A stretch of DNA of 64,000 nucleotides from Acidobacteriota bacterium (GTDB lineage Bacteria; Acidobacteriota; Vicinamibacteria; Vicinamibacterales; UBA2999): contig JAEUQR010000022.1 of NCBI GenBank assembly GCA_016789705.1, positions 1-64,000 of the forward strand, given 5' to 3'. A program made the position numbers and the translations under genes. The notes below the pieces were generated by a model. The model was given only the letters and a program-made list of their open reading frames with translations. It had not been told where the DNA came from and ran no database searches. This document shows positions 4,713 through 8,181 of this stretch, piece after piece (the stretch's first letter is position 1; every line of letters starts with the position of its first letter).

Positions 4713-6260
4713 ATGCCCTCGCTGGCCCTTGCCACCGACGCCCCGAAGATCACGCTGCGCAGCGCACCCGCCGTGCCCTACGACGGCGCCATCGCGGCCG
4801 CCCGCACCTGCTATTCGCCACGCGTCGTCGATGCCTCCGAAGTCACGGACAAACAGCGCGACTCGATCGGGCCGCTGACCTTCGAGGGCGGGCACCACAC
4901 GGTCTTCCAGCACGCGCACTTCGAGTTCGGCCTCGAGAACATCTCGCGCCAGTTCGTCTGGAGCGTGCTGCACGCGTATCCCTTCTACAACTCGGAGCAG
5001 TCGAGCCAGCGCTACGTGAAGCTCCGGGAGCCGCGCGCCTTCGTGCCGCCAATCACCGGCGAGGCGCTGCGGGTCTACGAGCAGTCGGTGCTCTCGGCGT
5101 GGGACTACTACGCGGAGCTCTCGGCGCTGCTCAAGGACGACGCCTGGGCCATCCTGAAGGAGCTGCGCTACCTGCGGCCGTCGAACAGCCCCGAGCGGCA
5201 CAAGGCGGTCGAGCGCGAAGCCGAGAAGAAGGCCATCGAAACGGCCCGCTACGTCATCCCGATTGCCGCCTTCACGTCGATGGTGCACACGGTCTCGGGA
5301 CTCGTGCTGCACCGCCTGCACCGGATGCTGAGCGCCGGCGACACGCCGCACGAAGCGCGGCTCGTCATCGGCGCGATGGTCGAGCTCGTGAAGAGCGTCG
5401 ACCCGATGTTCTTCGAGAAGGTCGGCCTCGACACGCTCGCGAGCGACGAACTTCCGGAGGCCGCGTTTCCGCGGGCCAGAGCCGGCGGCGATGCGTTCGC
5501 CGCCGCGTTCGACGCCCGTCTCGGCGGCCGCGTGTCACGGCTGCGCGACTGGTCGTCGGATGCGGAAGGTGTCGTTGGTGATGCCGTGCGCGCCACCTTC
5601 GGCCTCGACGCCGCCGACCTGCCGGACGACGAGGCCATCGACCGGGTGATGAACCCGGCCCGCAACCTCTACCGCGTGGACATGCTGAACGTGTCGCACC
5701 ACTCGCCGATGATGCGGGCGCTGCACCACGTGGCCTACGTGTTCGAGAAGAAACTCAGCCACACCGCCGATTCGCAGGATCAGCGCCACCGCATGGTGCC
5801 GGCCTCGCGCCCGCTCATGACGTTCGCCGACACGGCGGCGCCGGATGTTGTGACGCCGCGGCTGCTGCGGCAGAACCCGCGCGCGCTCGCCGTCTACGAA
5901 CGCGCGATCGCCGAGGCCTGGGCGGCGAAGAACCGCCTGCTCGAACTTGGCGTGCCGCTCGAGTACGCGCTCTATCTGCTGCCGAACGCCAAGGCGCTGC
6001 GTCTCGTGGAGTCGGGGAGCCTGCTGTCGCTGCAGCACAAGTGGACGCTGCGCACCTGCTTCAACGCACAGGAAGAGATCTATCTCGCGTCCATGGACGA
6101 GATCGCCCAGGTGCAGGACGTCCATCCGCGGCTCGGCCGGTTCCTCGGGCCGCCGTGCGTGCTGCGCAACCGGATCGTCTCGCCCCGCTGCACCGAAGGC
6201 TCGCACTTCTGCGGCGTACCCGTGTGGAACAGCTTCCCGCAGGCCGTGCGCCGGCTGTAA
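4713..6260 (+). CDS. Double-domain FAD-dependent thymidylate synthase-like protein (ThyX family)
   Basis: 515 residues, about twice a normal ThyX (220-250). Domain 1 (about 10-235) has the ThyX core GGHHTVFQHAHFEF followed by SEQSSQRY (94-101), but the RHR triad that should precede it is replaced (VLHAYPF). Domain 2 (about 290-515) has a second core (SHHSPMMRALHH) and keeps RHR at 358-360, but lacks SxRY. The C terminus (RTCFNAQEEI) matches the ThyX end. ThyX makes dTMP from dUMP using methylenetetrahydrofolate and FAD; whether this split arrangement is active cannot be told from sequence. A -10 box lies 6 bases before the ATG. Confidence 0.85.
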   Translation: MPSLALATDAPKITLRSAPAVPYDGAIAAARTCYSPRVVDASEVTDKQRDSIGPLTFEGGHHTVFQHAHFEFGLENISRQFVWSVLHAYPFYNSEQSSQRYVKLREPRAFVPPITGEALRVYEQSVLSAWDYYAELSALLKDDAWAILKELRYLRPSNSPERHKAVEREAEKKAIETARYVIPIAAFTSMVHTVSGLVLHRLHRMLSAGDTPHEARLVIGAMVELVKSVDPMFFEKVGLDTLASDELPEAAFPRARAGGDAFAAAFDARLGGRVSRLRDWSSDAEGVVGDAVRATFGLDAADLPDDEAIDRVMNPARNLYRVDMLNVSHHSPMMRALHHVAYVFEKKLSHTADSQDQRHRMVPASRPLMTFADTAAPDVVTPRLLRQNPRALAVYERAIAEAWAAKNRLLELGVPLEYALYLLPNAKALRLVESGSLLSLQHKWTLRTCFNAQEEIYLASMDEIAQVQDVHPRLGRFLGPPCVLRNRIVSPRCTEGSHFCGVPVWNSFPQAVRRL

Positions 6261-6277: not shown

Positions 6278-6979
6278 GTGGCCTGGCTGGCGCATCTCTA
6301 CACGGCCTCGGGGGCGGCCACGGCCCTGGCCGCCGTGCTGGCGCTCGAAGCCGGTGACCTGCGCGCCACGCTCCTCTGGCTCGTTCTCGCCGTCGTCATC
6401 GACGCGACGGACGGCGTGCTCGCCCGGGCGCTCCACGTGAAGGAACGTCTGCCGTGGTTCGACGGCGGCACGCTCGACAACGTCGTCGACTACCTGACGT
6501 ACGTGTTCGTGCCGGCGCTCATCGTCGCGAAGGCCGGCCTCGTGCCGCCGTCGCTCGCCCTGCCGATCGGCGCCGCCATGCTCATCGCCAGCGGCTACGG
6601 CTTCAGCCGCGCCGACGCGAAGGTGGCGACGACCGACTACTTCTTCACCGGCTTTCCCTCGTACTGGAACCTCGTGGTCGTGTACCTCGTGGACTGGCGC
6701 CTGTCGCCGGTGGTCAATACCGGCATTCTGGCGCTGCTCGTCGTGCTCGTGTTCGTGCCGGTGCGCTACGTCTACCCGTCGCGCACGGTCACCTGGCGCC
6801 CGGTCACGATCGGGCTCGGCGCGATCTGGGGCGTGTGCCTCGCCATGGTGATCTGGCGGCTGCCGGAGCCCGGCGGGCCGTGGTCGTGGCTCGCCCTCGT
6901 GTTCCCGGTGTACTACGTGGCGCTGTCGCTGCGCCTCAGCGTGGATGAGCGGCGCCGCCGTGCGATACCATCGCCGTGA
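6278..6979 (+). CDS. pcs: Phosphatidylcholine synthase (CDP-alcohol phosphatidyltransferase)
   Basis: 233 residues from the GTG at 6278. The family condenses CDP-diacylglycerol with choline in the inner membrane. The CDP-alcohol motif is seen as D42, D45-G46, A49-R50, then G63, D67 and D71. The longer spacing between the AR and G elements, with VKERLPWFDGG in between, is that of Pcs rather than of ordinary phosphatidyltransferases. About seven hydrophobic segments follow. The start is uncertain because no ribosome site is clear. The stop TGA overlaps the ATG of the next small gene (ATGA), so the two are very likely one transcript. Confidence 0.85.
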   Translation: MAWLAHLYTASGAATALAAVLALEAGDLRATLLWLVLAVVIDATDGVLARALHVKERLPWFDGGTLDNVVDYLTYVFVPALIVAKAGLVPPSLALPIGAAMLIASGYGFSRADAKVATTDYFFTGFPSYWNLVVVYLVDWRLSPVVNTGILALLVVLVFVPVRYVYPSRTVTWRPVTIGLGAIWGVCLAMVIWRLPEPGGPWSWLALVFPVYYVALSLRLSVDERRRRAIPSP

Positions 6980-7209
6980 TGCCCGCCGCATTTTCTGCCG
7001 TCCTCATCTTCGGCAAGGACACCTGACCCTACACGCTGGCCGCCCGTGAGGCGTACGAAGCGAAGGGGCCCGTCACCTACGTGAACGCGAAGCGCGATGC
7101 CGACGGCCTTGCGCGCATGCTCGAACACTCCGGCGGGCAGCGTCGCGTGCCGGTCATCGTCGACGCCGGCGCCGTCACCATCGGCTACGGCGGCACCTGA
7201 GGGGTGTGA
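6979..7209 (+). CDS. Glutaredoxin-like selenoprotein with two in-frame UGA (Sec) codons, ending U-X-X-stop
   Basis: The frame ATG (6979) to TGA (7207-7209) gives 76 residues if the TGAs at 7024-7026 (residue 16) and 7198-7200 (residue 74) are read as selenocysteine. It follows a glutaredoxin fold: strand VLIFGKDT, then U-P-Y-T where Grx has CPYC, helix LAAREAYEAKG, strand VTYVNAKRD, helix LARMLEHSGG, the cis-Pro segment RVPVI, strand AVTIGYGG, then T-U-G-V-stop. Both UGAs occupy expected redox positions, and the sequence stays Grx-like on both sides of the first, which argues against a pseudogene. From memory, an annotation family called 'UXX-star' has this C-terminal pattern; I could not check it. 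The start overlaps the pcs stop. It needs selA/selB/selC/selD elsewhere in the genome. Confidence 0.85.
7033..7054 (+). promoter_or_regulatory. Possible SECIS hairpin after the first UGA
   Basis: Six bases after the UGA at 7024-7026, ACGCT (7033-7037) can pair with GCGT plus A (7049-7054, one bulged G). The apical loop begins with GG (7038-7039). This fits the loose bacterial SECIS pattern, but the stem is short and constrained by coding. Confidence 0.35.
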
Positions 7210-7238
7210 CACGGCGGCCGGTCGGGCCGCCACACCCC
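7201..7238 (+). promoter_or_regulatory. Strong SECIS-type hairpin directly after the second UGA
   Basis: GGGGTGT (7201-7207) pairs with ACACCCC (7232-7238). After a five-base bulge (7208-7212), GGCGGCC (7213-7219) pairs with GGCCGCC (7225-7231). The loop is GGTCG. A GGUC loop about 19 bases after the UGA is the hallmark of the E. coli fdhF SECIS that SelB recognises. The stem covers the last two codons and the stop, and extends into the 3' untranslated region. No T-run follows, so it is not a standard terminator. Confidence 0.75.
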
Positions 7239-7282
7239 CTGCACCCACCTCAGGCGGACGCAGCCGCCCCGGACCCGGGCGT

Positions 7283-7311
7283 TTGACAGTTTGTGAAAGA
7301 CTTCACAAAAT
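7283..7311 (+). promoter_or_regulatory. Exporter-operon promoter with Rex-type operator between -35 and -10
   Basis: A perfect -35 (TTGACA, 7283-7288), a 17-base spacer and a -10-like CAAAAT (7306-7311). The spacer and -10 are overlaid by the perfect inverted repeat TTTGTGAAAGACTTCACAAA (7290-7309). This contains TTGTGAA-N4-TTCACAA, the consensus of the NADH-sensing repressor Rex. It also satisfies the CRP pattern TGTGA-N6-TCACA, but its position over the core promoter fits a repressor better. Confidence 0.7.
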
Positions 7312-7338
7312 CGGGGTATGGGCGTGTGCGAGGTGCCA

Positions 7339-8181
7339 ATGTCCCGTTCCCGCCGTGTGTTCCGCCCGGCGGCGCTTGCGGTCTTCGTGATTGCCGGTGC
7401 CCTGATGGTCACCGCGGCGCCAGGAGCGCAGCCGGCCGCGGCGCCGGTTGAAGGCAGCGCGGACTGGGTGGCCGCGCGCATCGACGCCCGTGACACCGGC
7501 CGCGACTCGCGCCTGGCGATGACGATGCGCCTGGCCGACCGGCAGGGGCGCACGCGCGAGCGCACGCTCGTCATCACCACCCTCGCTGCCGCCGGCGCCC
7601 GCGGCGACCGCGTGCTCGTGCGCTTCCTGGGTCCGGCCGACATCCGTGGCACCGGATTCCTCGTCTGGGAGCACGCGCAGAAGGACGACGAACGCTTCCT
7701 CTACCTGCCGGCGCTCGGCCGCGTGCGCCGCATCGCCGGCGCCGAAGCGCAGGAGAGCTTCGTTGGGAGCGACCTGAGCTACGAAGACATTGGTGGCCGC
7801 AGGCTGACCGACTACACCTACCGGATGGTCGAGGCTACCGCCGCGTGGACCGACACGCAGGGCGCGTCGCACCCGGCCTGGCGGATCGAGTCGCTGGCGA
7901 AGGACGCCGGCGCGCGGTATCCGAAGGTGCAGTCGCTCGTGCGCAAGGACGCCTTCGTCATCGTCGAGGCCCAGGTGTTCAACCGCCGCGGCGAACGCGA
8001 GAAGCAGTACACCGTCTCGCGGCTCGAGCGCCCGGGCGGCATCTGGACGGTCATGGACGCCACGATGGCCAACGAGGCGACGCGCACGCGCACGACGCTC
8101 GTCGTGACCGAGGCCCGCTACAACACCGGCCTCGCCGAGGACGCCTTCAGCCGGCGTGAACTGGAGCAGGGCGCCCGGTGA
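7339..8181 (+). CDS. Periplasmic outer-membrane lipoprotein-sorting-like protein (LolA fold) of an RND export operon
   Basis: 280 residues from the ATG at 7339, preceded by GAGGTG and starting a clean signal peptide (MSRSRRV, hydrophobic core, ending near APGAQ). An alternative ATG at 7318 lies 6 bases after the -10 box and would be leaderless, giving 287 residues. The mature part (RVLVRFLGPADIRGTGFLVWEH, ERFLYLPALGRVRRIAG) is characteristic of the LolA-like proteins found beside HAE3-type RND exporters. It probably handles a lipid or lipoprotein in the periplasm. Its stop overlaps the RND start. Confidence 0.85.
   Translation: MSRSRRVFRPAALAVFVIAGALMVTAAPGAQPAAAPVEGSADWVAARIDARDTGRDSRLAMTMRLADRQGRTRERTLVITTLAAAGARGDRVLVRFLGPADIRGTGFLVWEHAQKDDERFLYLPALGRVRRIAGAEAQESFVGSDLSYEDIGGRRLTDYTYRMVEATAAWTDTQGASHPAWRIESLAKDAGARYPKVQSLVRKDAFVIVEAQVFNRRGEREKQYTVSRLERPGGIWTVMDATMANEATRTRTTLVVTEARYNTGLAEDAFSRRELEQGAR

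Follow-up and report, generated by a model that had tools for sequence, protein, structure and literature searches.

A predicted SECIS element beyond the stop codon of a UXX-star family 1 selenoprotein gene

The selenoprotein gene of the window and its hairpin

The window analysed in this work, a stretch of 64,000 nucleotides from an Acidobacteriota bacterium, holds a UXX-star selenoprotein family 1 gene with two Sec codons (Table 1). The encoded protein scored 107.5 bits against the NCBIfam model NF041114 (cut-off 72), covering profile positions 1-70 of 70, and 30.1 bits against the Pfam Glutaredoxin model (cut-off 22.9), and its C-terminus, UGV-stop, fits the U-X-X-stop implied by the name of the family. 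It is the only UXX-star family 1 gene in the whole genome that holds the window. The Sec machinery was found in the same genome, with selA at 528 bits, selB at 296.6 bits, over its cut-off, and a tRNA-Sec at 64.4 bits against a gathering score of 47. In the excerpts of PMC13188914 cited here, family 1 is tabled as 'distant Grx-like protein 1', with UxxT and 2 Sec, whereas a place for the second SECIS, as described below for the window gene, is not given in those excerpts. The original prediction mentioned neither that the protein family is already catalogued nor that the true stop is also a UGA.

Table 1. Coordinates of the features of the selenoprotein gene and its 3' hairpin in the window.
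Feature	Position	Strand	Description
UXX-star selenoprotein family 1 gene	6979..7209	+	76 residues, MPAAFSAVLIFGKDTUPYT...GYGGTUGV-stop; glutaredoxin-like
First Sec codon, UGA	7024..7026	+	KDTUPYT, UxxT position
GCC CGU GAG, putative coding-region signal (part) for the first UGA	7042..7050	+	Codon fixation in Sec forms; weak helix test
Second, C-terminal Sec codon, UGA	7198..7200	+	Third-last codon; U in 91/91 homologues
Two XX codons, GGG GUG (Gly-Val)	7201..7206	+	Sole translated part of the predicted hairpin
True stop codon, UGA	7207..7209	+	9 nt after the Sec UGA
Predicted SECIS upper stem-loop	7213..7231	+	7 bp (7213-7219 with 7225-7231), loop GGUCG at 7220-7224; entirely 3' UTR
Lower stem with five-base bulge	7201..7238	+	7201-7207 with 7232-7238, bulge 7208-7212; folds in the window, not conserved

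The surroundings of the gene can be described briefly. The UGA stop of an upstream open frame overlaps the ATG of the selenoprotein gene (UGAUG, 6977-6981), an arrangement that suggests that the two may be translationally coupled. Further upstream, a 515-residue open frame at 4713-6260 may encode an FAD-dependent thymidylate synthase (ThyX), of about twice the usual length. Between the hairpin and the next gene, close to the former, a promoter-like TTGACA-17-CAAAAT lies at 7283-7311, with 10 of 12 matches where none are expected in shuffles. A protein structure predicted from the single sequence reached a pLDDT of 44.7 and was left out of the argument.

The original prediction had described, after the UGA at 7198-7200, a two-part stem of seven and seven pairs with a five-base bulge and a GGUCG loop about 19 bases from that UGA, and had read it as a SECIS lying mostly beyond the stop, with UGA as the third-last codon and two further codons translated. 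The frame ends as described (...GGTUGV-stop), the MFE fold of 7195-7245 is identical to the structure proposed (-28.7 kcal/mol, z = -2.09) and the GGUCG loop begins 19 nt past the UGA, so that the observation of a hairpin past the stop is confirmed; its interpretation as a SECIS is supported by the comparisons reported below. A search of 6900-7400 against Rfam gave no family at threshold, the weak hits being chance-like. Six of 200 dinucleotide shuffles folded equally well, and since a lone GC-rich sequence could form a hairpin by chance, homologues were collected.

The upper stem-loop among homologues

Profile searches with NF041114 gave matches over the cut-off in 58 of the 193 class genomes and 43 of the 396 phylum genomes searched. 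All of these loci were fetched, together with 30 of the weaker relatives (below the cut-off or Cys-like), and after six duplicates had been dropped (L006, L075, L077, L083, L084, L089) there remained 103 distinct loci, 91 of which have a readable family 1 C-terminus. The other 12, without the C-terminal family 1 motif, are two loci cut by contig ends (L060, L101) and the more distant relatives L062-L065 and L104-L109. Hairpin tests were run on 90 of the 91 loci, L036, which holds N, being left out. Control stops were taken from the longest open frames (200 codons or more) that the same loci contain, some of which may not be genes. A tblastn search against plasmids gave no match, and a pattern search of the genome contigs returned one locus, a duplicate of L069, since its patterns had Cys codons substituted for UGA. 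Among class genomes, selB exceeded its cut-off in 51 of the 58 that are family-positive versus 90 of the 135 others (p = 0.002), and was absent at that level from 7 of the 58.

The C-terminal codons are strongly preserved. The third-last codon is UGA (Sec) and the order UGA-X-X-stop is kept in all 91 loci, with GV as the two X residues in 72 of them; the true stop is UGA in 65, UAG in 18 and UAA in 8. At the N-terminal site, read in 88 loci and not covered in 3, U occurs 77 times and Cys 11 times. Within the 91-locus set the C-terminal U is more conserved than the N-terminal U, a comparison to be read with the knowledge that the NF041114 model was built on such U proteins and that Cys forms may fall below its cut-off.

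Contiguous stems of 6 bp or more, closing a loop of 3-6 nt, were found at the expected position in 72 of 90 homologues, versus 13% of shuffles and 13 of 68 stops of other genes. With the threshold lowered to 5 bp, the count rises to 84 of 90 (30% of shuffles; 22/68 at other genes' stops). The hairpin that the original prediction expected wherever the C-terminal U is present is thus there in nearly all of the homologues. It falls short of 5 bp in 6 of the 90, L020 and L069 included. In these two loci, L020 (from genome G100) and L069, the codons UGA-GGN-GUN-UGA are kept and no stem reaches 5 bp; the SECIS may have diverged there, or the assembly may be faulty.

The compensatory changes on which the original prediction had been made to depend are abundant, as seen in three tests. 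When columns were anchored on the UGA, without any picking of hairpins, the best 6-bp helix of 86 sequences scored 11.9, whereas none of 100 column shuffles exceeded 8.7. When the register was set by the three inner pairs alone and the outer pairs were scored, pairs 4 to 7 formed in 79/85, 69/85, 65/85 and 55/84 sequences, with re-dealt means of 36.3, 37.6, 34.5 and 34.1 (z = 9.6, 7.1, 7.6 and 5.5, respectively). In a fixed register, 55 of the 90 tails, hand-chosen to thin near-duplicates after the folds had been seen, gave a covariation of 0.343 versus 0.225 in shuffles, the former value being reached in 0 of 500; 54.5% of the cells were paired versus 44.6%, and the true register beat all six slid registers. 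Every position of the stem shows a mixture of GC, CG, AT and TA pairs. Kinship among the sequences somewhat inflates these tests, and the margins of the second are large; the MAFFT alignment of the tails is ungapped and does not register hairpins of unlike spacing, so that its counts understate pairing. Taken together, the enrichment of the stem and the strong covariation of the outer pairs indicate that the upper stem-loop is a real element under selection.

The features shared among these elements resemble those of fdhF, as the original prediction had proposed from the loop and its spacing. In 83 of 84 homologues the loop has G in its first two positions, stems are mostly 5-8 bp long, and the distance from UGA to loop has a median of 18 nt (5-95% range 15-21, extremes 12 and 23), some values lying just under 16. 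The predicted position beyond the stop also holds: of 84 homologues, 80 have a 5' arm that begins past the stop codon and 4 have one that begins inside it, a count made with a search that barred arms from entering the two XX codons. The lower 7-bp stem, which the original prediction had counted as part of the element, was not supported. At the 5% level, just 2 of 84 homologues have a 3' flank that folds better than its shuffled versions, and for the window 26% of such shuffles fold equally well. The upper stem-loop is therefore, on the sequences compared, the only conserved part of the hairpin. This agrees with previous work in E. coli, in which the minimal SECIS is the 17-nt upper stem-loop (PMC11431864, excerpts).

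The first UGA and the distant relatives

The same mRNAs carry another signal, of a different kind, at the first UGA. At 18-23 nt after it, GCC is found in 77 of 77 Sec forms versus 3 of 11 Cys forms, and CGU in 64/77 versus 1/11; the heptamer CCCGUGA follows the first UGA in 62 of 77 Sec forms and in 0 of 11 Cys forms. The stretch at 7042-7050 of the window resembles a SECIS bound to coding sequence and apparently fixed, not covarying. A contiguous small-loop stem of at least 6 bp at the first UGA was present in 6 of 77 sequences, no better than chance (9% of shuffles). Under synonymous resampling the first-UGA stems gave a mean of 10.3 versus 9.4, the maximum set mean being 10.1. A helix with a wider loop, on the other hand, showed a modest excess, with 183 of 426 cells against a re-dealt mean of 148 and a maximum of 170. 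The notion that an N-terminal signal is absent was dropped in view of this modest enrichment and of the fixed codons. In 63 of 76 mRNAs, no small-loop stem near the first UGA is as long as the stem in the 3' UTR.

The distant Uxx-star relatives (L105-L107 and L114-L133) mostly have CPYC or CPHC at the first site, with Sec placed 3-5 codons ahead of the stop. A stem past the stop was found in 12 of 18 such relatives with a C-terminal Sec versus 2 of 8 Cys forms, a count resting on the 26 of 30 relatives that were scored (L109 and L131 were set aside without the motif; L107 and L129 failed the pattern). Two of the distant relatives were compared with NCBIfam models and scored 68.9 and 87.5 bits for the Uxx-star subfamily (cut-off 66), both remaining below the cut-offs of families 1-3.

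Two UGAs under one hairpin, and the relation to known SECIS elements

A GC-rich hairpin directly after a gene could also serve to terminate transcription intrinsically or to stabilise the 3' end in general, the UGA at 7198 being then a real stop. However, no terminator-like site was found in 6900-7400 and just 4 of 84 homologues have a T-rich stretch past the hairpin, on which grounds the terminator was rejected. The preservation of UGA-X-X-stop (91/91), the loop G (83/84), the spacing fixed from the UGA and the occurrence of the stem at just 13 of 68 stops of other genes argue against the whole of this explanation, which we consider extremely improbable. It could be supposed as well that both C-terminal UGAs (7198 and 7207) are decoded as Sec and that the protein extends further, given that UGA stands at both places in 65 of 91 loci with one hairpin in common. 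Against such an extension, UAA or UAG occupies exactly the second place in the remaining 26, and the next in-frame stop is unconserved, lying 2 to 20 codons on in 18 of the 65 and past the 75 nt examined in 47. Moreover, the stop UGA stands closer to the loop (median 9 nt, range 5-12) than the 16-37 nt given by the published model (PMC13188914, excerpts), and decoding of both UGAs as Sec is in our judgement very improbable; low-level read-through of the second UGA (7207) may occur. As to how much of the hairpin is needed, the window does fold into the two-part 14-bp structure at -28.7 kcal/mol, as would be expected if Sec insertion required all of it, lower stem included, but the lower stem outdoes shuffles of the 3' flank in no more than 2 of 84 homologues, the window not among them, and the minimal E. 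coli element (PMC11431864, excerpts) dispenses with it. A requirement for the whole structure is thus unlikely.

We therefore read the hairpin as a probably genuine bacterial SECIS for the C-terminal Sec of UXX-star family 1, with its functional upper stem-loop wholly in the 3' UTR, and assign this reading a probability of about 0.92. According to the excerpts of PMC13188914 that give the bSECIS consensus (Fig. 2 legend), such elements have a loop of 3-9 nt, an upper stem of 4-16 bp, a G in the first two positions of the loop, a UGA-to-apical-loop distance of 16-37 nt and an MFE of at most -7.5 kcal/mol. The window hairpin agrees with all of these structural features (5-nt loop, 7-bp stem, GGUCG, 19 nt, -28.7 kcal/mol). 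What sets it apart is its location, since bacterial SECIS elements are placed in the coding region (PMC13188914, PMC11431864; excerpts), whereas the upper stem-loop here, at 7213-7231, is untranslated and lies past the stop at 7207-7209. Archaeal and eukaryotic SECIS elements share the 3' UTR location, but they differ in structure and act over far longer distances (PMC13188914, PMC11431864; excerpts), in contrast to the tight, bacterial-type spacing seen here. The closest likeness is an engineered one: in E. coli, an untranslated 3'-UTR SECIS drives Sec insertion near the C-terminus of rat TrxR1, and that thioredoxin reductase construct likewise combines a Sec near the C-terminus, a stop and a minimal 17-nt untranslated stem-loop (PMC3834832, PMC11431864; excerpts). 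The engineered element, however, is man-made and in the scheme excerpted from PMC11431864 follows a UAA, whereas the natural elements mostly follow a UGA and have another stem sequence. A partial search of the literature, with the related-family definitions of Haft et al. outside its range, found no description of a natural bacterial SECIS past a stop. The protein family and engineered 3'-UTR SECIS elements were already known; the natural past-stop elements are a well-supported variant.

The presence of two UGAs under one hairpin raises the question of how they are told apart. UGA is no rarer as the true stop than at control stops (65/91 versus 45/68; Fisher p = 0.49), and in the 59 UGA-stop genes with a clear hairpin it lies 5-12 nt (median 9) from the loop. 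No link was found between stop identity and the spacing from the Sec UGA to the loop (median 18 nt for UGA, n = 59; 19 for UAG, n = 18; 16 for UAA, n = 7; p = 0.93). Since UGA as a stop is undiminished at only 9 nt from the Sec UGA and under the same hairpin, position must separate Sec from stop; and since it is not depleted, the second UGA is seemingly not misread as Sec often enough for counter-selection. Previous studies offer a possible explanation. In the excerpts of PMC4513850 cited here, the ribosome covers about 11 nt ahead, early recruitment of SelB to the SECIS shields the UGA from RF2, and RF2 wins if the upper stem alone is available from the outset. The second UGA of these genes is likely spared because the ribosome has by then entered the stem.

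By analogy with the fdhF work, SelB with Sec-tRNA-Sec would bind the G-containing loop before the ribosome arrived there. With the UGA at 7198 in the A site, the loop would lie some 18-19 nt away and the upper stem would be folded just outside the ribosome, favouring Sec over RF2; two codons on, the ribosome would have moved 9 nt into the stem, SelB delivery would cease and RF2 would read the UGA at 7207 as a stop. On balance, and with moderate confidence, we favour the view that these hairpins represent a widespread, undescribed class of natural bacterial 3'-UTR SECIS, in which melting of the stem over three codons may act as a one-shot, position-read switch that makes the first UGA Sec and the second stop. 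If these hairpins do work as such a switch, the fact that UGA is not selected against as the stop would imply that discrimination between Sec and stop is nearly complete in the cell.

In a coding-region SECIS, codons and RNA structure limit each other, and the dozens of natural elements described here escape that limit. What selection appears to keep in them is an upper stem of 5-9 bp of nearly any sequence, a G-containing loop and a spacing of about 18 nt, with no lower stem. The second, apparently coding-bound signal of the same mRNAs (GCC CGU GA, at the first UGA) allows a comparison within one mRNA, and the UGA-X-X-UGA layout is a natural two-codon test of how UGA is shared between SelB and RF2. 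Such genes may thus serve as a natural test of what the bacterial Sec machinery requires.
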